This document shows, one piece after another, positions 2,175-63,956 of a stretch of 64,000 bases of DNA. Within the stretch, counting starts at the first letter, position 1, and each line of letters begins with the position of its first letter. A program made the translations under genes and the position numbers. The notes below the pieces were generated by a model. It worked only from the letters and a program-made list of their open reading frames with translations, searched no databases and was not told the origin of the DNA. Source of the DNA: Chrysomallon squamiferum (lineage: Eukaryota; Mollusca; Gastropoda; Neomphalida; Peltospiridae); the NCBI GenBank assembly GCA_012295275.1, contig CM022675.1, forward strand, positions 6,820,832 to 6,884,831, read 5' to 3'.

Positions 2175-28636
<26,462 letters not shown>

Positions 28637-34329: not shown

Positions 34330-34770
34330 CATTCTTGTTGTTTTTTTCTTGAAAATAATCTTTCACAACCAACACCATAAAAGTTTTGAATTTTGAAAAT
34401 AGAATCTTTTCTACCCAACAGCATAGAAGTTTATTTTTGAAAACAGAATTTTTATACCCAACCCAAAACAAGTTTGTCTTTGAAAACAGAATCTTTCTAC
34501 CCAACACCACAGAAGTTTGTTTTTGAAAATGGAATCTTTATATCGAACACCAAAGAATTTTGTCTTTGAAAACAGAATCTTTCTACCCAACATCATAGAA
34601 GTTTGTTTTTGAAAATGTAATCTTTAAACCAAACATCTGATCATAGAAAGTTTGTTTTTGAAAACAGAATCTTTATACCCAAACCAAAGAAGTTTGTTTT
34701 TGAAATCTGAGAGAATCTTAGAGATGGTTGTATTTTGGAAGTAGAATCCTTTCTACCCAACACCATAGAA
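34330..34770. repeat. Minisatellite with about 46-bp units
   Basis: Units of the form GAAAACAGAATCTTT followed by TACCCAACACCA and TAGAAGTTTGTTTTT recur about nine times. Two overlapping - strand frames of 60-80 codons cross it and merely translate the repeat. Confidence 0.88.
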
Positions 34771-36252: not shown

Positions 36253-39200
36253 TTTTGACAACTCTTCTACAATGGATGGACATTACAGTTTCAGAACCAG
36301 AGAAAAGGACAAACACATCCATGAAGATGCAGGACACATTTATTGTATATCTTGTAGAAACCAGGTATTATATGATTTATTTATTTATTTTTGGGAAGAA
36401 ATACATTTTCATTCTTTTTATTATTATTATTTTTTTTTTTTTTTAATAAAGATATATTCTGATTTTCAAAACACATACATAAAACAATTAAAATAAATGT
36501 AAGAAGTATAAATTCGAAGGTTTTCTCTCTTTTTTTTTGAATTTTTCCCACCAAGAGTGACAGATGAAAACATGAAGGGATATGGAGAAAGAACAACATC
36601 GCTATGGCGACGGTATAGCGAGTTTGAACTTCTGAGAAACTATTTGGATATCATGTATCCAGCCATTGTTATTCCTCCACTACCTGAGAAGAAGGTGACT
36701 TTTTAACTACACTTTATTTATTCATTTCTTTTTCTTTTTCTTTTTTTTCTCATTATTAATGAAAAAGAATAAATAAATAAAGTATGTTTGAATTATTATT
36801 TATAAATATCTGTTTTTGATTATTTTATATTTATTAGTCTATTATTGTGTTTTTAAATTTACTCAAGAATATAAACAAAATGTTTTAATTAATTTTTGAA
36901 TTTTTGTATTTTTATTTATTTATTAATTTTTTTATAATTATTTTTAAATTATTATTTTTGTTATTGTTATTTTCATCATTATCATTGTTATCATCATCTA
37001 CATTATTATTATTATTATCATTATTCTTATTTTCATTATTATTGTTATCATCATCATCATCATTACTATTATCATTATTATTCTTATTATTGTCATCATC
37101 ACTGTCATCATTATTGTTATAAATGTTGTTTATATTTTTTTCGTAGGCAAGTTACACATGGCTGAACTCTCCAACTGATAAGTTAGACCCAGAGTTTGTG
37201 GAAAGAAGAAGAAATGCTTTGGAGGTTTTTGAATCATTTATTTATCAGTACTTAGAAATAGCTTAATGCATTTAGTAAACTTCTTACACGATTACAGATA
37301 ATTCATTTATTTGTATTTACAAAAATAGCTTAATACAGTTAGTAAACAACTTACATCATTACAGATAATTTATTTATTTGTATTTACAAAAATAGCTTAA
37401 TACAGTTAGTAAACAACTTACATCATTACAGATAATTTATTTATTTGTATTTACCAAATAGCTTAATACAGTTAGTAAACAACTTACTTGATTACAGATA
37501 ATTTATTTATTTGTATTTACCAAATAGCTTAATACATTTAGTAAATAACTTGAATCATTACAGATAGTTCAAGCATTCACTTAGTAGTACAAACAAACAG
37601 TCACATAAAAATATCATACTTCCATGTTACTATTTTATGTGACCCATCACATCAAAACAAGTCTTAAGTCACAAGACCAAGTATTCAGCATTAGACAACA
37701 CAAGAACATTAATGAAGAGGACACAACATTTTTTTTATTTTTTTATTTGTTAAAAATGGGTTTATATGTACCTTATCTCTTTGAATGAGTGACACAGTTA
37801 ATGGATATATTAATCCTAAGGAATCCTATATTCACTCATAACAAAGTATGGCAATAAAACAATACTGTTACAAAATATCAGATCACCACAATTTTACCTC
37901 ATTATGACTACAGTCATGATGTTGTCATTCATATTATACATGGTTGAGTGATAACAGTTGTTTATAAAAGATGGAAGAAACTTTATACCAGTGACATTAT
38001 GACATCATAACATTGAGATATTTTTAAATGTCACTCTTTTTTTTTTATTATACTTTATTAGTAGTTAAGCTTGGACAGCACAAAATAGACAAAAACATAA
38101 TGTGGAAGAATGTGAGATGTAATTTAGACTATTTCTTCTTATCTCTCTACTGTTACACTTTAAATATATATCAGTGATATCATTTACTATCACCAGGGTA
38201 TATATCAGTTTGTGGACAGTCTTTATCTGCTTGTTTTTAACTGGTTCACTGCTACATTATCTATGCTATAGTGCAGGCCAAATGTACACAAAGGCATTTT
38301 CCATGATAACTCTTAATGTTTGAAGTTCAAGGAACCTGTAACCAGCCAACCCAGGAAAACAGTGTCAGATAATAAATTTCTTTTTAAATTTTTTTTCAGA
38401 TTTTTCTATTACGAGTGGCAGCACATCCTGTTATTTGTAATGATAAAATATTTATGGGATTTTTACAGCAGGTAATAAAAAATGTTTCTGTCTGTCTGTC
38501 TGTCTGTCCATCTCTCTGTATTTTTTTTTTTTTGTAACTGTGTAAATTTCAGTTTATCAGTTTATTTATTTGATGTTTATCATTCTGTTTGTCCTGCTGC
38601 TTACTGTTTTGTTGATTATTAATCTGTTAATTTATGTGTTTGATTGTCAGTGTATATATTTATTTTTATACTTCCTTCTTTGTCATTTTTTCTTTAAAAA
38701 TAAAACTATTTATTTTATTTTTTTCTATGATTTGTATAGTTTTTGTAATATTCTTGTTACTAGTGATTAATAGAAGAATATTTTTAAATGTATATTTTAT
38801 TGTGTTCTTAAAAATGAGCACTAATGTGTATTTTGATTTCTCTTTGAAGTATATTAACAGAAAAATCATAGTTTTCTTTAAAAACACATTTGATGAAATT
38901 ATATTGAACTAGATATTCACATTAATTTTGACAAAAACATCCATTTTGAAATATCTTCAGTGAATGCTGAATTGTTGTTAAATATCTTTTTCTAAAAAAA
39001 TTGATCCATTAATAAAAAATACATTTTAAAAAAGTATAAAAAATATATATAAATTATTATTTCTTTTGTTGCAGGAGAATTCATGGAAAGATTTGGTTTA
39101 TGCTACAGATTTTCAGAGTAAAGTAAGTTTTGCATTTATATTTTACATATATTTTTATTGTTTTAACAAAATCTAAAAAGGTATTTAATTTTACATAATT

Positions 39201-40350: not shown

Positions 40351-43300
40351 CATTATTATTATTATCATTATTTCAGAAAATCTGTGATAGGCAGTATGGT
40401 ATACACAAGGTACATGCAAACTATGCGAGAGTGTTTGGAGAGTGGAGTACTATAGAAAAAGACATGGCTGAAGCCCTACAAAGCACTGGACACTACATGG
40501 ATGTGTGAGTCTTTCATGTTTTGGATGCTACAGTATTACAGAAATAATTTGGCTTACGAAAAGCTTTGCAAATCCTGCCAATTTATTTATGAGAAAAATC
40601 ATGAGTTGCTTCCCTTTGAAATTATTAATATTATTATTACTGTTGTTATTGTTTGGTGTTTTTTTTATATATATATATATATCAGATAAAGTGTTATCAA
40701 TAAATGCTATATCAGAAGAAGAATTATTGTTCATATTATTTATTATTATTGTTATTGTTATTGTTATTATCTTTATTATATTATTATTATTCTTCATTAT
40801 ATGATTATTATTATAACTACTGCTACTGCTACTACCATCATTATTATTAATATTACTACTAATACTAACATTATTATTATCGTCATTATTACCATTATTA
40901 TCTTTAGCATCATCATCATCATCATCATCATCATTATTATTATCATCATCATCCTTATTATCTTCGTCATCATTACCATCACCATCATCGTCATCATCAT
41001 CATTATTATTATTACAGATATGCATCATCAATAGATGCTATACTGGAGGAGACAGAACAGTATGCTGATCAGTTGAAGGAGTATTTGGCGTTTGGCGAGT
41101 CGCTGAGGTCGGTGTGCAGGAAGTACGAGTGTCTACAGTATGACTTGGAGAAAGCAGAAGACAGCCTCTCATACAAAGCTTCACAGCGAGACATGATTGT
41201 AAGTGTCGTCCATATTTTATTTGAAGTATAATTTTTTAACGTTTTTTTATATAAAATGTGTTGTCAAAATTTTATTTGATGTATAATTTTTTAACGTTTT
41301 TTTACTTAAAATGTGTTGTCGAAATTTTATTTGAAGTATAATTTTTTAATGTATTTTATATAAAATGGAAGTTTTGTTTTAAAATATAATTGTTTTTGTT
41401 TTTACGTATTTTATATAAAATACAAATTTTGTAATGATTTCATTTCAAATATGATTTATTTATGTTTATTTTATATAAAATGTAAGTTTTCTTATCCAGT
41501 TTGTTTTAAAATATTATTTTCTTTTATGTATTTCATAAAATATAAATTTGTTAATAGTTTTATTTCAAATATAATTTTATTTACGTTTTTTAATATAAAA
41601 TATAAGTTTTCTTACCCAGTTTGTTTTAAAATATAAGTTTTGTTATTCTGATTTTATTTGAAATATAATTTTGTTCTTCATTTATGTTTATTTTAAATAA
41701 GTTTAATTAAAATACGAGCTTTGTTCCTCAAATTTTGTTTGAAATATAAATTTTGTTATTAAACTTTGATTTAAAATATAAATTTTGTTACTCAAATTTT
41801 AATAAAATAAATGTTTATTTTATTCAGTTTTTATTTATATAAAAGATTTTTAATACACATTTTATCGAAAATACTAGTTTTGTTGCTCAGTTTTTATTTA
41901 AAATTATGTTTGGAATATAAATTTTGTATACCAGACTTATTTGAAAATACAGAAAATATAATTTTATCAGTCAGATATTATTTTAAAATGTTATTCAGAT
42001 GTTACCCAATTTTTACTTAAAATACAAGTTTTTTGAATTTTATTAAAATATTTTTAAATATAAGTTTTGTTTACTCAAATTCTATTTAATATTTAAATTT
42101 TTATTTTATTATTCAAATAACTTGAGTACATATAATAATTTCTTTTTATTTTGTTCTTTTTTTTCTTTAATGTGTCTTTGCTAGCAGCAAGGAAAATCTC
42201 CTGGCAGTTTTTCTATCAGTGGAATGAAAAGTAAAATATTTGGAAACGACACACCTGAACAGCGAGAACAGAAACTGAAACAACTGGAGGAGCAGATCAA
42301 GCAAGCAGAGGTAGACCTGAAGCAAACAAACGAAGAAACCGCGTAAGTGATACACAGAAAATTTATTTGTTGATCAACAAGGAAATGGGGGTTTGTATTT
42401 GTTGTTATTTTGTTAATAAGTGAAGAAATGGGGTTTATATTTGTTAATAAGTGAAGAAATGGGGTTTATATTTGTTAATAAGTAAAGAAATGAGGTTTAT
42501 ATTTGTTAATAAGTAAAGAAATGAGGTTTATATTTGTTAATAAGTAAAGAAATGAAGTTTATATTTGTTAATAAGTGAAGAAATGGGGTTTATATTTGTT
42601 TATATTTTGTTAATAAGTAAAGAAATGAAGTTTATAGTTGTTAATAAGTAAAGAAATGAGGTTTATATTTGTTATTATTTTGTTACTAAGTGAAGAAATG
42701 AGGTTTATATTTGTTATTATTTTGTTAATAAGTGAAGAAATGAGGTTTATATTTGTTAATACATTATTAATAAGTGAAGAAATGGGGTTTATATTTGTTA
42801 ATAAGTAAAGAAATGGGGTTTGTATTTGTTATTATTTTGTTAATATGTGATGAAATGAATTTTGTATTTGTTATTATTTTGTTAATAAGTGAAGAAATGA
42901 GGTTTATATTTGTTAATATTTTGTTAATAACTGAAGAAATGAGGTTTATATTTGTTAATATTTTGTTAATAAGTGAAGAAATGAGGTTTATATTTGTTAA
43001 TATTTTGTTAATAAGTGAAGTAATGAATTTTATATTTGTTATTATTTTGTTATTATTTTGTTAATAAGTGATAAAAAGAAGTTTATATCGTTAGCTTATC
43101 AAGCATAGAATATATTTTTATTTTGTAACTTTTGGTTAATCACTGGTACAACTAAAATAATCAGAGAAATGGTTCTTATCTTTGATTAAGAAGTAAGTAA
43201 TTGGTTTAAAAACTAAAATAAAAAACAGGCTGAGGCAGTATTGAAATAAATGAACAAAGAAAGAGCATATTTTGTCACCTTTGGTTAAATAACAAAAAAA

Positions 43301-54907: not shown

Positions 54908-54968
54908 ATGTGGAAGGAGGCGACATTTGCCTTCTTGGTGTTGTGTGTGGTTGCAGTGCGTTCTCAGG
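54908..54968 (+). CDS. Signal-peptide exon of the collagen-like gene
   Basis: ATG 54908 starts MWKEATFAFLVLCVVAVRSQ, a typical signal peptide with a short charged n-region, a hydrophobic core and probable cleavage near VRS-Q. The last base G (phase 1) precedes GTAAGT at 54969. The short exon and phase match the first exon of fibrillar collagen genes. Confidence 0.88.
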
Positions 54969-58306: not shown

Positions 58307-60180
58307 AAAAAAAAAAAATGTAAGTTAGCTGTACCTATTTCTCTATCACTATATAATGTTGTTTAAAAATGCTCTGGCTATTCTTAAAAATTTTCATTTA
58401 AAACTTTTCAGATGAGGAAAGTGAATGTTTTGATGCCCAGCTCAAACCAGTACCCGAGGGAAGACGATGGATACCGGATGCTAATGACCCTTGCTATATC
58501 TGTCGATGTATGAACAAAAAAGCCGTCTGTAAACAAAGGAAATGTCCCCCATTGGCCAAGTGCAAAAACGGCGCGGAAGCCATCCAACCAGAGGGCGAGT
58601 GTTGTCCAAAATGTCCAGGTACGTCATATGTTGTCTATGACGTTAGTTCATAAGACAACGTAAACTGCTAGCAACTAATACTGACGTCAGAGCATATTAT
58701 CGAAAAATTATATAAAAAAAAAAAAAAAGTATATACAAATACCGTATACATCTTTTATTATTATTAATAATTTAATTACACTTCTCCTATGTCACGTAAT
58801 AAACGTTACATACATTGTTTTAATTTATATCCTAAATGGACTAAGATTACGTAATCACATCCAAACCACGTGACTGTCTATACATTTACTGTGTAATACG
58901 ATGTGCATTACTCCTGTAAAATATTATCCAAATATATGCTTCTAGTTTTTCAAATAAAAACAATAATGACAAGAAAATTTAAAGTCAAATTAAAACACAC
59001 TCATGCATAACGTAACAAAAATAATAAAATAAAATAAAGTTTGCAAAGTCATCTTTATAAAAATAATAAAATAAAATAAAGTTTGCAAAGTTAATTATCG
59101 ACACAGGAACGTTCAAAATGTGTAAAACATATTTTTGACATGTCTGGAGTTAACGCCCTTCCTCATACGTCCAGCATTCCAAGATATGTACAATAATACT
59201 TCAGTGAATGGGGACAAATGTTTTTCACATTAGGGTCACCGTTAGAAATTTTACGTCTTAAAGGATTTTCACTCTTTTAGCACATACAGATGTGGCCTAT
59301 ATTAGAAATACTTCATGGCTCTCTGTCATTTCAGCATTCTACGTATAACGTGGTGTATATCTAACATTTTACAGAAAATAATATGAAAGCCGAAAGGTTA
59401 CATTAACCCAGATCTTGTACATTTCTCATAAATATGTATTCCATATCTGAACCACAATGAAAGAAAGAGATGTTTTGGGGTCGTGTTTTTTTTTTTTTTT
59501 GGGGGGGGAGGTTTGCGACGCATTCAAAACATTTTCAATCTTTTGTTAATTTATTATGGACTAAGCTAAAAAGGATAAATTAAATAGAACCTGGTTTATC
59601 AAAACGAATTAACTTTTTTCCGAAATTGTTAATTAACCGATTATTTGCTAAAGCATTTAAATAAGTCATAAGCCAAAGCAACTCTTTTTAATTAACTTAT
59701 TAAAGACAACTTATCCTTTTAATGAACAAAAACACATCCATAAGATAGACAGATAATGAAGTGATGATAATTTGATGAAATCAGCGCAGCCAGTGAAATG
59801 CATTAAAATAAAAATGTGAAATGTATATATGTATTTATTTATTTATTTATTTTTAACTGCACGTCAATACATAAAGGATGTTCTAAAAATGTATTCTTGT
59901 TCTTGGTCTAATATAGTTTTATTAAAATGAAAAATAGGAAGAGAATAAATTAAAATATCAACCATTGTATTTCTGTAATTATTATTATTATTATTATTAT
60001 TATTATAACAATGATTATGTTTTTATTTTTCAGATGAACGTGACGTAAGTAAAATAAACCTGCATGTGATAGAATTATAAAGTAGCGTAATTCACGGTAT
60101 AATCTAGAATAATCCACCTTGCAACATGACGTAAGCATTATAACCGTGTAGATTTTGCTGTTTTGATGCTCTGTATATTT

Positions 60181-60241
<61 letters not shown>

Positions 60242-62024
60242 AAAAAATTCAAAACATTTATTTTTTTTTTATTTTATACAACATAGCTGAGCAGCTTTGA
60301 TATCCAGTCCAATTCGCAAAACTTTTATTATTCAGTATACCGATTTCGGCAGCAACCGTTCATTTCCGGGAGCTTTTATTATTGTTCTTCCTCTTTATTA
60401 GCAAAAACTTGTCTCTGCCTATATATTTATTTTGGCAGTTTGTGTATACTATCACAGAGATGGATGGCTAACAAATACTAACTCAGACTGGTTTATAAAT
60501 ACTTACATTTAATGCTTTGTGATTAATTCCACTTGATGATGATGATGTTTTGGTTATGACGCCAATATTGGGTATAAAGATGATGATAGAGACTATATAT
60601 ACATGTATATTTATTTAATGATAGTTATACGATAATCGTTATCATAATGATGATAATGATGACAGCTGATGATTATTCTGTTCACTGTTTAACCAGTGAT
60701 ATTTAAGTACCTGTTTCAAAATGAAGAATAATTTTAACATAGTTGGTGTGCTTCCAAGAAAAAAGCTAAGCACGCCAGTCCAAAAGGTTACATTCTCATC
60801 AAAACGCCTAACCATTAATAAAACAAACTCAGAAGAGCCCAGTATATAATAATATAAATAAATTTAATAATAATAATAATAATAATAATTCGGTGCCATA
60901 ATTAGTAAAACGTTATTGTTTTGCTTTATAGAAAAAAGCCCGAAGAAAGGTAAGAATTTCGTTTCTTATGCAAATTAGTTTTTTAACCTTAGACTTCGCT
61001 TTTGAACCAAACAAGTTCAGAAGAAAACATTAATTCATAAATTTGATTTATAATAATAACAACAGTAATCAATATCATTTTGAAACTGAAACCTGAAAGG
61101 CTTAAAATCTAAAATTTAATGAAGTGCAAACAAGAAGAAAAAAAATCTGATATAAAAAAGAATTATAGGATTTTATATTTAAAAAAAAAAAAGGGAATAA
61201 AATTTTAATTAAAATATATATATACACACACACATAATTAATACTTTGTAGAATCCAAATATTTTAGATTGTTTATGATAATTATTTTATTTCATGAATC
61301 TGCTATGATTAATTTAAAAAGTAAAGATACATAAGCATTTCATATTTATAAAAGAAAAAATTAAAATTCTTTCTCTGTCTTTTAGGTTGTCAGAAAGGTA
61401 AGCCCTGAAATTTTAAAACTGAAATTAAACAAATATCAATATTATGAATCTTGTTTTCTAAAAACAATAATAATAATAATAAATAAGTTCAGAGTTTATC
61501 TTGTAATCTTCTGGAAAACAAATAAAAAATAAAATATTTTGTAACAATTAAAAAAAAAAGAAGTTATATTAAAAGCAATTCTTAAATTGATCCAGTCACA
61601 GTAGACTTTTTCGTTTACTGATAAATATTTAATTTTTATCTCTGTTTTAGCCTCCTGTCAGAAAGGTAAGAAGTGTAATTTACAAGATTAAAAGCAAAAA
61701 ACATAAAATCTGCTGAAAAAAAAAGAAAAAAAAGAAGTAAATAAATAAATAAATATATATATATAAATCATTCAATCAATCAATGAAATAAATAAATGAT
61801 TTACATTTTTAAATTAGGAAATTAAAAATAAAAAAGCAAATAAAAGTTAAGTTTGCTAATTAAAAAAAAAAAATATATATATATATATATAATTAAAAGC
61901 AATTCTTAAATTGATTTAGTTTACTGATAAATATTTTATTTTTATCTGTGTTTTAGACTCCTGTCAGAAAGGTGAGCAGTGATATTTTACATTAAAAGCA
62001 AAAAAATATAAAATTTGCTGAAAA

Positions 62025-62071
<47 letters not shown>

Positions 62072-63324
62072 AAATATTAATCAATAAATAAATAATATTT
62101 GAAAATAAATAAAGAAGATAAGGCATGATGAAAAAAAAAAAAAAACTGTATATATAAATATAAAATTTAAAAAAAAAAAAACTTAATACAAAATGAAATA
62201 TATCATTTGAAATCTCTCTTTATTTTATAAAAATACTATTCAATCACAATAAACTTTTTACTGATGAATATTTTATTTTTATCTCCGTTTTAGCCTCCTG
62301 TTAGAAAGGTGAGCTGTAATATTTTACAACATTAAGAGCAAAATTATAAAATTTGCTAAATAAAAAAATAAATATTTCAAAATAAATAAATAAAATAATG
62401 CAGAATGAAATATAAATTTGTATATATATATCAATATAAAAAAAATAATAATAATAATAAATTAATACAAAATATATTATAAATTGTTGCATTCGTCTTT
62501 TATTTTAAAAAAAAAATGCTAATCAAAATTTAAAAAACAAAGATCTTTTTATAATTTCTTTTCTTAATTCCTCTTTCTTTTAGTTTTCTGGAAAAATGGT
62601 AAGTTTCTAAGTTTTATAAAGAAAATAAAGAGCATTTTTGTTTTTCAAAAACTGTTAAAAGGTAGTAAATAAAAAGGCATAATAAAATTTACAAAAATGA
62701 ATGATAATAATAATAATAATAATAACAATAATAACAGAGTGGCTGAAATTCATTAGCTAAATGTTCTTGTTAAAATTATTAATTACTTAGTTAATTATCT
62801 AATTAATTACTGTTGAACTGAGTATTTATCAACTAAACATTTTATTCAGAATATATTATTTTTATTTTTATTTTTTATGCTTTAGACTTCTGGCAAAATG
62901 GTAAGCATTTATATTTTTAAAACTGTAGGAATAATTTGATGTAAATTTCTTTAAAAGAAAACGTTAAACATTTAAAGCAATAAATTCTTTAGAAATATAA
63001 TTAGAATTTAAAAATTAAAATAAATAAATAAATAAATAAATTTTCAAATATTAAACAATAAATTCCTTAGAAAGCATCAACTTACTATATAAAAAGAAGT
63101 TTATTAGTTGTTTTTTTTCTTTCTCCCATAAATTTGTTTATAAACAAAATTTTTATAAATATTGTTATCTTTGTTTTAGCCTTTTGGTGGACTGGTAAGC
63201 TGGAAAATTTCTTTTTCTAAAAATTTAATAACAAAATTATTGGTTAAATTATGATTTTTTTTTTTCTTCTGAAATTTAACAAAAATAAAAATAAATTATT
63301 TCATAAATATTAATAATAATAAAA

Positions 63325-63367
<43 letters not shown>

Positions 63368-63956
63368 TTAATAATAATAAATTTTGAATAATAACAAACA
63401 ATATATAACTAAAAAATTTAAATTATATATATAATTTTTCCTTTTAGAAGTTTGAAACTAAGGTAAGCTTAATTTTTTTTTACTGATTTAAAAGAAAATA
63501 AATTTAATAATTAAAATGCTTAAAAAAACATAATTAAGATATGATGTACTATCAAGAAATTGCTTTATTAAAAATACAAAGTAAAGTTAATTGAAAGATT
63601 TGTGTTTCAATATACTTTTTATTCATTTATTTTATTTTTATTTTTATTATTTTTTTTCCTTTATGTAAAATCTTCTAAAATTAAATACATAGTAAAATTA
63701 GTTTTTATGTTTATTTATTTATTTATTTTTTTTTTTGACACACTGAATTAAGCTTCCACCATTACTGAAAATAATAATACTAAAATATAATAAGATAAAT
63801 ATCAATTAAAATAATAACAAAACTAAAACAAAATAACAAGTTTAAAAAGCAAAATAGTCTTATAATGTGTTAGTAATAGTTAAAGGAAATATTCTTTAAA
63901 AAGTTGCATATTAACTTTTTACTTCTACTTTTCTCCTTTTTTAGACTGGAGGAGGG
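54908..63956 (+). CDS. Secreted VWC-domain protein with a micro-exon array; probable fibrillar collagen N-propeptide (3' end outside window)
   Basis: Exons 54908-54968, 58412-58618, 60034-60044, 60932-60949, 61386-61397, 61651-61665, 61957-61971, 62294-62308, 62584-62598, 62886-62900, 63180-63194, 63448-63462 and 63945-63956 join to 142 residues, and the gene continues past the window. There is a signal peptide (1 to about 20), a ten-cysteine VWC domain (about residues 26-88), and then a basic linker built from four- to six-residue micro-exons. Signal peptide plus VWC plus small exons is the layout of fibrillar procollagens. The 207-nt VWC exon and the tiny phase 1-to-0 exon after it recall vertebrate COL2A1 exons 2 and 3, as I remember them. 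No Gly-X-Y helix is visible inside the window, so another secreted VWC protein remains possible. Confidence 0.75.
56322..56396. repeat. (TTA)n microsatellite
   Basis: This is a pure trinucleotide run of about 25 units in intron 1 of the collagen-like gene. Confidence 0.95.
57758..57832. repeat. Compound (TC)n(AC)n microsatellite
   Basis: A CT run passes directly into a CA run with one TTTCAC interruption. Confidence 0.93.
58233..58303. repeat. (GA)n microsatellite before the VWC exon
   Basis: About 34 GA units are followed by a poly-A run, some 110 bp upstream of the VWC exon. Confidence 0.95.
58412..58618 (+). CDS. VWC (chordin-like, ten-cysteine) domain exon, 207 nt
   Basis: The exon runs from ACTTTTCAG to GTACGT, phase 1 at both ends. 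It encodes DEESECFDAQLKPVPEGRRW, then IPDANDPCYICRCMNKKAVC, KQRKCPPLAKCKNGAEAI and QPEGECCPKCP. The ten cysteines follow the VWC pattern, including CxxCxC in the first half and CCxxC at the end. In fibrillar procollagens this domain binds BMP/TGF-beta family ligands. Because both edges are phase 1, skipping the exon keeps the frame, as in the known COL2A1 IIA/IIB switch. Confidence 0.93.
58619..60033. other. Intron 2 of the collagen-like gene
   Basis: No further exon is evident. A short direct repeat of AAAATAATAAAATAAAATAA with AGTTTGCAAAGT occurs near 59019 and 59059. The rest is AT-rich single-copy-looking DNA, ending with a TTA tract (59979-60005) and TTATTTTTCAG. Confidence 0.75.
60034..60044 (+). 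CDS. Micro-exon 1 (11 nt, phase 1 to 0): DERD
   Basis: ATGAACGTGAC lies between TTATTTTTCAG and GTAAGT. With the G from the VWC exon it completes Asp, then Glu-Arg-Asp. It converts phase 1 to phase 0, so all later micro-exons are in phase 0. It could also join directly to exon 1 if the VWC exon is skipped. Confidence 0.8.
60045..60931. other. Intron with (CT)n tract
   Basis: The intron contains a pure CT run at 60186-60239. The remainder is AT-rich, with GAT/GATGAT repeats around 60536-60665 and AAT at 60868-60890. No convincing additional micro-exon was found. Confidence 0.7.
60932..60949 (+). CDS. Micro-exon 2 (18 nt): KKARRK
   Basis: AAAAAAGCCCGAAGAAAG lies between TGCTTTATAG and GTAAGA, phase 0-0. 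The strongly basic peptide contains a dibasic RRK, a conceivable proprotein-convertase target. Confidence 0.78.
61386..61397 (+). CDS. Micro-exon 3 (12 nt): VVRK
   Basis: GTTGTCAGAAAG lies between GTCTTTTAG and GTAAGC, phase 0-0. Its last nine bases are identical to those of micro-exons 4 and 5, so it belongs to the xPVRK family with one codon fewer. Confidence 0.8.
61651..61665 (+). CDS. Micro-exon 4 (15 nt): PPVRK
   Basis: CCTCCTGTCAGAAAG lies between TCTGTTTTAG and GTAAGA, phase 0-0. The surrounding intron (TGATAAATATTTAATTTTTA upstream; ATTAAAAGCAAAA downstream) matches that of micro-exons 5 and 6, showing duplication of exon with flanks. Confidence 0.85.
61957..61971 (+). CDS. Micro-exon 5 (15 nt): TPVRK
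   Basis: ACTCCTGTCAGAAAG lies between TGTGTTTTAG and GTGAGC, phase 0-0. It differs from micro-exon 4 at one base (C to A), which changes Pro to Thr. Confidence 0.85.
61980..62180. repeat. AAAT/AATA-rich tract inside the micro-exon introns
   Basis: A (TAAA)n run at 62023-62073 is flanked by poly-A stretches. It is part of the duplicated intron unit but expanded in this copy. Confidence 0.8.
62294..62308 (+). CDS. Micro-exon 6 (15 nt): PPVRK
   Basis: CCTCCTGTTAGAAAG lies between TCCGTTTTAG and GTGAGC, phase 0-0. It differs from micro-exon 4 by one synonymous base (GTC to GTT), a hint that the peptide has been maintained by selection. Confidence 0.85.
62584..62598 (+). CDS. Micro-exon 7 (15 nt): FSGKM
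   Basis: TTTTCTGGAAAAATG lies between TTTCTTTTAG and GTAAGT, phase 0-0. It starts a second family with micro-exon 8. Confidence 0.82.
62886..62900 (+). CDS. Micro-exon 8 (15 nt): TSGKM
   Basis: ACTTCTGGCAAAATG lies between TATGCTTTAG and GTAAGC, phase 0-0. It shares SGKM with micro-exon 7. The Gly codon differs synonymously (GGA versus GGC). Confidence 0.82.
63180..63194 (+). CDS. Micro-exon 9 (15 nt): PFGGL
   Basis: CCTTTTGGTGGACTG lies between CTTTGTTTTAG and GTAAGC, phase 0-0. It has the same length, phase and splice-site style as its neighbours but a new peptide. Confidence 0.8.
63310..63385. repeat. (AAT)n microsatellite
   Basis: This is an AAT run of about 22 units with small interruptions, between micro-exons 9 and 10. 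Confidence 0.92.
63448..63462 (+). CDS. Micro-exon 10 (15 nt): KFETK
   Basis: AAGTTTGAAACTAAG lies between TTCCTTTTAG and GTAAGC, phase 0-0. Confidence 0.8.
63945..63956 (+). CDS. Micro-exon 11 (12 nt): TGGG
   Basis: ACTGGAGGAGGG lies between CCTTTTTTAG and GTAAGC, phase 0-0. It is the last exon visible before the window ends. The glycine run may lead towards a glycine-rich or collagenous part further downstream. Confidence 0.75.

Follow-up and report, generated by a model that had tools for sequence, protein, structure and literature searches.

A candidate array of 43 micro-exons between the VWC exon and the triple helix of a fibrillar procollagen gene of Chrysomallon squamiferum

The micro-exon genes (MEGs) of Schistosoma mansoni contain 10–20 short exons, mostly of 15 bp and in multiples of three, and encode secreted products (PMC10526429). 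In aphids, megacycle genes exceed 100 micro-exons, with 118 exons counted in one species, and show internal repeats (PMC9168663). Several human collagen genes contain multiple micro-exons, there defined as exons of ≤51 nt (PMC4317164). Here, we analysed a window of 64,000 nt from the gastropod Chrysomallon squamiferum (contig CM022675.1, positions 6,820,832 to 6,884,831, forward strand) together with the sequence that follows it, where 43 consecutive candidate micro-exons lie between the VWC exon and the helix exons of a fibrillar procollagen gene. Human COL1A2 has an 11-nt exon 2 (phase 1 to 0) and a 15-nt exon 3 (phase 0, ETVRK), which strikingly resemble the 11-nt DERD and 15-nt TPVRK exons here, but vertebrate fibrillar collagens are known to have one or two short exons at the matching place, not 43. 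A limited literature search found no report of such a micro-exon array in a fibrillar collagen.

The first-pass annotation of the window, made from its sequence, had claimed at least eleven micro-exons in a secreted VWC protein. All eleven were bounded by AG and GT and had the lengths (11, 18, 12, seven times 15, and 12 nt) and phases it gave, and the joined frame was open and yielded the peptides it quoted (Table 1). A phase change (1 to 0) occurs in the first alone, and the remaining ten are 0–0 with lengths of 12, 15 or 18 nt. A paired-site detector, based on metazoan splice weights and AG–GT pairs of 9–21 nt, found 16 plus-strand pairs in the window, including the eleven, and 3 minus-strand pairs. 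In 500 dinucleotide shuffles of 60–64 kb the mean was 0.014 pairs (maximum 1) and in 30 shuffles of the whole window 1.7 (maximum 4), a test that is partly circular since the thresholds were the array's own minima. With three fixed pairs of thresholds, the last 4 kb held 9 of 12, 4 of 5 and 7 of 12 plus-strand matches, and 0 of 5, 0 of 5 and 0 of 3 minus-strand matches. Ten donors in 60–64 kb scored ≥5.5 bits, every one belonging to a listed micro-exon; the eleventh (60045) scored 3.8 bits. The ten micro-exons that are multiples of three had 44% GC versus 15% in the introns from 60950 on; intron pieces drawn at random 100,000 times never reached 44%. An Rfam search of the window gave no match.

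The count of at least eleven held but fell short, with 32 further candidates past the window end. Genome searches used the assembly that contains the window (404.6 Mb in 22 contigs). Coordinates past 64000 continue along contig C11 (position on C11 minus 6820831), and L003–L014 are handles for the 10-kb pieces that tile 63801–183800 in order. The first eleven exons were used to train a weight matrix, which, with length modulo three left free, was run over 60000–78500 and returned 40 pairs, one of them nested and one (LIN, at 77241) an outlier of 11% GC that was discarded before counting. A second, frame-conditioned scan added five candidates. The resulting 43 consecutive candidate exons of 11–30 nt spanned 60034–75426, with 11.5 kb of the array past the window, and 42 of them were multiples of three in phase 0, with 36 distinct sequences. 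By size there were one of 11, three of 12, twenty of 15, three of 18, one of 21, three of 24, nine of 27 and three of 30 nt, amounting to 827 coding nt within 15.4 kb, and the introns measured 207–887 nt (median 309). Donors were GTAAG or GTGAG in 40 of the 43 exons and acceptors were TAG (39), CAG (3) and AAG (1); GC was 52% in exons and 16% in introns. One micro-exon has an exact copy on C9 (L001), which lacked flanking splice sites and was dropped as chance.

The AG–GT pairs could in principle be chance or decoy sites instead of exons, and the 26% GC of the window, where T-tracts ending in TAG are common, would favour such sites. We consider this extremely improbable, given the shuffle expectation for 60–64 kb, the GC contrast of exons and introns, the position of the array within an otherwise recognisable collagen gene, and the outcome of a scan that ignored reading frame (GC ≥0.33, donor score ≥6 of 9). 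In the 15.5 kb of the array this frame-blind scan made 42 matches, four of which were internal acceptors nested in listed exons and were discarded before counting. The 38 non-nested matches were all among the 43: 37 were multiples of three and open in phase 0, and the other was the 11-nt exon. Four of the five frame-conditioned candidates were recovered in this way, and the opposite strand of the same 15.5 kb had no match. Elsewhere, matches per 15.5 kb numbered 5.4 in 1–54.9 kb (lengths modulo three 9, 8, 2), 5.0 in 99.1–123.7 kb (6, 2, 0), 13.1 in the helix region at 75.5–99.1 kb (6, 5, 9) and 6.8 on the whole minus strand (18, 18, 18).

The annotation had guessed at a fibrillar collagen N-propeptide, which was borne out by a COLFI domain and Gly-X-Y exons located downstream. 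The order is VWC exon, micro-exon array, telopeptide-like exon, Gly-X-Y helix and COLFI C-propeptide. The helix has 996 residues with one non-Gly triplet, in 37 exons of 36–216 nt, of which 30 measure 54, 99 or 108 nt. The C-propeptide pieces, joined by eye from open reading frames, matched COLFI with E = 6.6e-49, and a genome search with COLFI placed C-propeptide matches at C11:6918279–6919916. These match the traits of a clade A-type fibrillar procollagen (VWC, a helix of about 1000 residues in exons of 45, 54, 99, 108 or 162 nt, and COLFI), except that the minor triple helix was not seen: the plus strand from 60000 to 78377 had no run of at least four Gly-X-Y triplets. A secreted VWC protein, also claimed, agrees with a hydrophobic leader judged by eye and with the VWC domain, which scored above the Pfam cut-off; a genome-wide VWC search recovered the same exon. 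The gene was recognised as a collagen because of the exons downstream of the VWC exon and not because of VWC itself, from which the origin was undecidable: a PDB sequence search ranked Crossveinless-2 (E = 1.4e-6) over collagen II (0.07). Human COL2A1 exon 2 has 69 codons, the same number as the VWC exon here (PMC12627340). For the N-terminal head, a 142-aa search gave no homologue candidate and another gave 52, none at E of 10 or better, in a protein collection that includes molluscs and with lengths of about 249–671 aa outside coverage; that collection seems to contain no close relative of suitable length. An extra 21-nt candidate micro-exon (QYDQPYA) was observed at 96348–96368 (L006), between helix and C-propeptide.

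Table 1. Positions of the candidate micro-exons, the other parts of the procollagen gene and the neighbouring collagen gene
Feature	Position	Strand	Description	Basis
Putative signal-peptide exon	54908..54968	+	61 nt coding part, ends in phase 1; hydrophobic start MWKEATFAFLVLCVVAVRSQ	Judged by eye
VWC exon	58412..58618	+	207 nt (69 codons), phase 1–1	Pfam VWC, E = 2.5e-9, above cut-off
Micro-exon 1	60034..60044	+	11 nt, phase 1 to 0, (D)ERD	Frame-blind scan
Micro-exon 2	60932..60949	+	18 nt, KKARRK	Frame-blind scan
Micro-exon 3	61386..61397	+	12 nt, VVRK	Frame-blind scan
Micro-exon 4	61651..61665	+	15 nt, PPVRK, one of three tandem copies	Frame-blind scan
Micro-exon 5	61957..61971	+	15 nt, TPVRK, tandem copy	Frame-blind scan
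Micro-exon 6	62294..62308	+	15 nt, PPVRK, tandem copy	Frame-blind scan
Micro-exon 7	62584..62598	+	15 nt, FSGKM	Paired-site detector; under frame-blind GC limit
Micro-exon 8	62886..62900	+	15 nt, TSGKM	Frame-blind scan
Micro-exon 9	63180..63194	+	15 nt, PFGGL	Frame-blind scan
Micro-exon 10	63448..63462	+	15 nt, KFETK	Paired-site detector; under frame-blind GC limit
Micro-exon 11	63945..63956	+	12 nt, TGGG	
32 additional candidate micro-exons	past window to 75426 (L003, L004)	+		
Telopeptide-like exon	77989–78090	+	102 nt	
Helix exons	78378–95036	+	37 exons	
C-propeptide	end near 99091 (L006)	+		
Neighbouring fibrillar collagen gene	109404–136660 (L007–L010)	-	Tail to tail with the array gene	

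The annotation had also likened the locus to schistosome MEGs. The likeness stood for exon size and phase, and in both systems introns are long relative to exons (PMC10526429). Set beside the mostly 15-bp micro-exons of MEGs, 20 of the 43 exons here are 15 nt long and 42 are multiples of three. Membership of that family was not supported, given the 207-nt VWC exon and the full collagen body: MEGs are described as composed of exons of 3–81 bp, whereas here the array is part of a structural procollagen with helix exons of up to 216 nt, and its 43 exons compare with the 10–20 short exons of a MEG. Aphid bicycle and megacycle genes likewise have very many small internal exons in a single phase (PMC9168663), but bicycle exons are in phase 2 and encode CYC motifs of putative salivary effectors, while the collagen array is in phase 0 and encodes no Cys or Tyr. 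Among collagens, the sea urchin procollagen with SURF modules is similar in being expanded between VWC and helix, in a region that is possibly spliced out (PMC2852846); SURF modules, however, are four-cysteine domains and the minor triple helix is kept, in contrast to the cysteine-free micro-exon repeats found here. The 54-nt exon model of the collagen helix likewise invokes growth via duplication of phase-0 exons (PMC2852846), but the units here are 12–30 nt and their peptide is non-collagenous.

The array encodes a spacer of 276 residues (102 Gly, 51 Ser, 23 Thr, 18 Arg, 17 Met, 17 Ala and 13 Lys; no Cys, no Tyr). It starts with KKARRKVVRKPPVRKTPVRKPPVRK, where 13 of 25 residues are Lys or Arg, continues with STGGGAGGM-like units and has a Ser/Arg-rich end. 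The final base was G in 41 of the 42 phase-0 exons versus 4 of 230 internal codons, a preference partly built into donor detection, and 16 of the 17 Met residues were exon-final. This near-constant G before the donor suggests that splice-donor rules largely dictate which amino acid (Met, Arg, Lys or Leu) closes each repeat. In the first 53 spacer residues, a search for protease sites found no RxxR and one KARR. Joining micro-exons 2 and 3 forms ARRKVVRK, which we take to be a motif of heparin-binding type.

The PPVRK, TPVRK and PPVRK exons are tandem copies spaced 306 and 337 nt apart, with 91% identity over the exon and the 45 nt before it, 58% farther upstream and 72–79% downstream. Past the window, units of 336 nt (2.8 copies, 92% matching) were present at L003 3715–4659 (67.5–68.5 kb) and were followed by units of about 250–500 nt. 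The 60 nt upstream of the STGGG-type exon at 68118 were 95–98% common to five other STGGG-type exons. In these two stretches, tandem duplication of exon-plus-intron units of about 0.25–0.5 kb built part of the array. Flank similarity was low between most other exon pairs of the window. Since the flanks of the copies are similar in places and little so elsewhere, the array is part young and part old or diverged.

Recent duplicates of this kind would also be expected if the repeats were mostly neutral by-products of tandem duplication in AT-rich, low-complexity DNA and the spacer had no specific function. That synonymous change is not in excess and that the window has many other tandem repeats, including a duplicated exon end and donor in an upstream gene, are in keeping with such an origin. 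We nevertheless find it improbable, as 36 distinct exons in multiples of three retain frame and splice signals that drift is expected to break, and the composition is graded from basic through Gly-rich to Ser/Arg-rich.

The gene, otherwise a typical one for a fibrillar procollagen, probably encodes an N-propeptide with a flexible spacer between VWC and fibril, which would have grown by exon duplication and is predicted to be mostly included in the product. The 276-residue low-complexity spacer, encoded in 43 exons, would occupy the expected place of the minor triple helix. Because phase-0 units insert without breaking the frame, units added through unequal exchange could have lengthened the spacer one exon at a time, on a smaller scale than, but in the manner of, the 54-nt exon model of the helix. 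The exons would be spliced across short introns (intron definition), most of them being included. The product is predicted to be a disordered tether, strongly basic at first and then rich in Gly, Ser, Thr and Met, which would hold VWC at a distance from the fibril and could also bind acidic matrix, with the N-propeptide presumably retained on the fibril. Over evolution, the number of exons would determine how long the tether is, with partial skipping as a possible second influence. For the retained N-propeptide of vertebrate type V collagen, a role in restricting fibril diameter has been proposed (PMC2852846), and in COL2A1 the exon that carries VWC is alternatively spliced by developmental stage (PMC12627340); by analogy, both could serve as models for the role of a tethered VWC domain here.

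Several observations weigh against the view of a long, mostly included spacer. Five of the 43 exons fell under one of the frame-blind limits: those at 62584 and 63448 for GC, at 67417 and 74033 for the donor, and at 74379 for the acceptor. The exons at 74033 and 74379 were recovered without a frame condition by the weight matrix, and those at 62584 and 63448 are among the eleven of the window; the exon at 67417–67443 was detected solely by the frame-conditioned scan, and that at 74379–74393 has the AAG acceptor. Between related exons, 17 of 60 changes were synonymous versus 18.2 expected, and selection at the protein level was thus not indicated. Copy number in the recent tandem repeats depends on the assembly. 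In the gene body, the helix exon at 95356–95399 (L006) has 44 nt where 45 are expected and was left out of the gene model; either the assembly lacks a base there, or it is a variant or damage to the gene.

The symmetric phase permits exon skipping, and a putative regulated choice of exons is possible. Under such regulation, tissues or stages would include different subsets of the 42 symmetric exons, so that tether length and charge vary. In its favour, every exon after the first, 42 in total, is a phase-0 multiple of three, micro-exons are prone to skipping (PMC4317164), alternative splicing of the COL2A1 VWC exon in vertebrates depends on stage (PMC12627340), and a sea urchin fibrillar collagen may remove its VWC and SURF modules by splicing (PMC2852846). 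However, with GTAAG or GTGAG at 40 of 43 donors and short introns, the array fits constitutive splicing at least as well as skipping. SRRM4-type neural micro-exons have a UGC element just upstream of the acceptor; here UGC was present within 25 nt of the acceptor in just 2 of 43 exons, which led us to reject the neural micro-exon code and counts against regulated inclusion. We treat a regulated cassette array as a tentative and somewhat unlikely alternative. It is rather doubtful that the array acts as a 42-unit ruler, by which cells would set tether length and charge, from a few to about 270 residues, through the number of units spliced, and evolution would do likewise through duplication, the donor dictating the residue that closes each unit.

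The genome search with COLFI returned at least 10 exon-level matches in at least three loci: the array gene, its minus-strand neighbour and a locus on contig C8. The first 37 helix exons of the neighbour were identical in size and order to the 37 of the array gene, including those of 144 and 216 nt. By eye, and provisionally, the neighbour has two minor-helix-like Gly-X-Y exons before a telopeptide-like exon upstream of its helix, as well as a VWC-like exon, which is shorter and was not returned by the genome-wide VWC search, and a 23-nt exon with a predicted change from phase 1 to 0. Neither of these two other loci had an array, with 12 frame-blind matches in 22.6 kb of the neighbour (modulo three 8, 2, 2) and 53 in 80 kb on C8 (16, 20, 17), at most 19 of them in any 15.5 kb. 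Within this genome, as far as the three fibrillar loci returned go, the micro-exon array is gene-specific. The 216-nt helix exons of the array gene (88605–88820) and the neighbour (117183–116968) each contained a single non-Gly triplet, in both cases the 12th (AAK and APK), and the matching position suggests an inherited helix break.

Upstream, at 2.2–27.4 kb, the window holds a gene for a doublecortin-like kinase (DCLK). The top-scoring named relatives of its product were bivalve DCLK-type proteins (≤81% identity over one fifth of the query), and the best match overall had 74% identity over 86%. Within this gene, at 27237–27920, about six decaying repeats of a kinase-exon 3' end and its donor (CTTAGTCCATACTGGGACAATATTTCACACA, then GTAAGTC) were seen by eye, separated by (TG)n(GA)n tracts; the copies are possible decoy donors. 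Minisatellites with periods of 31–89 nt lie upstream of the collagen gene at 42405–43052, 37236–37571, 34357–34705 and 23138–23560.

To our knowledge, long micro-exon runs have been described chiefly in schistosomes and aphids, in genes for secreted proteins, and are associated there with the diversity of effectors. About 43 micro-exons in a fibrillar collagen would show that an ordinary structural gene can acquire this architecture, with the array apparently replacing a domain retained by the adjacent paralog. Automatic gene models may overlook most of such an N-propeptide. With the adjacent gene as an array-free control, the array gene offers a clean case for the recognition of short exons and the growth of a spacer exon by exon, and it bears on the extent to which splice-site rules shape protein sequence. 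If cells do choose how many units to splice, this would be the first such ruler known to us in a structural matrix protein.

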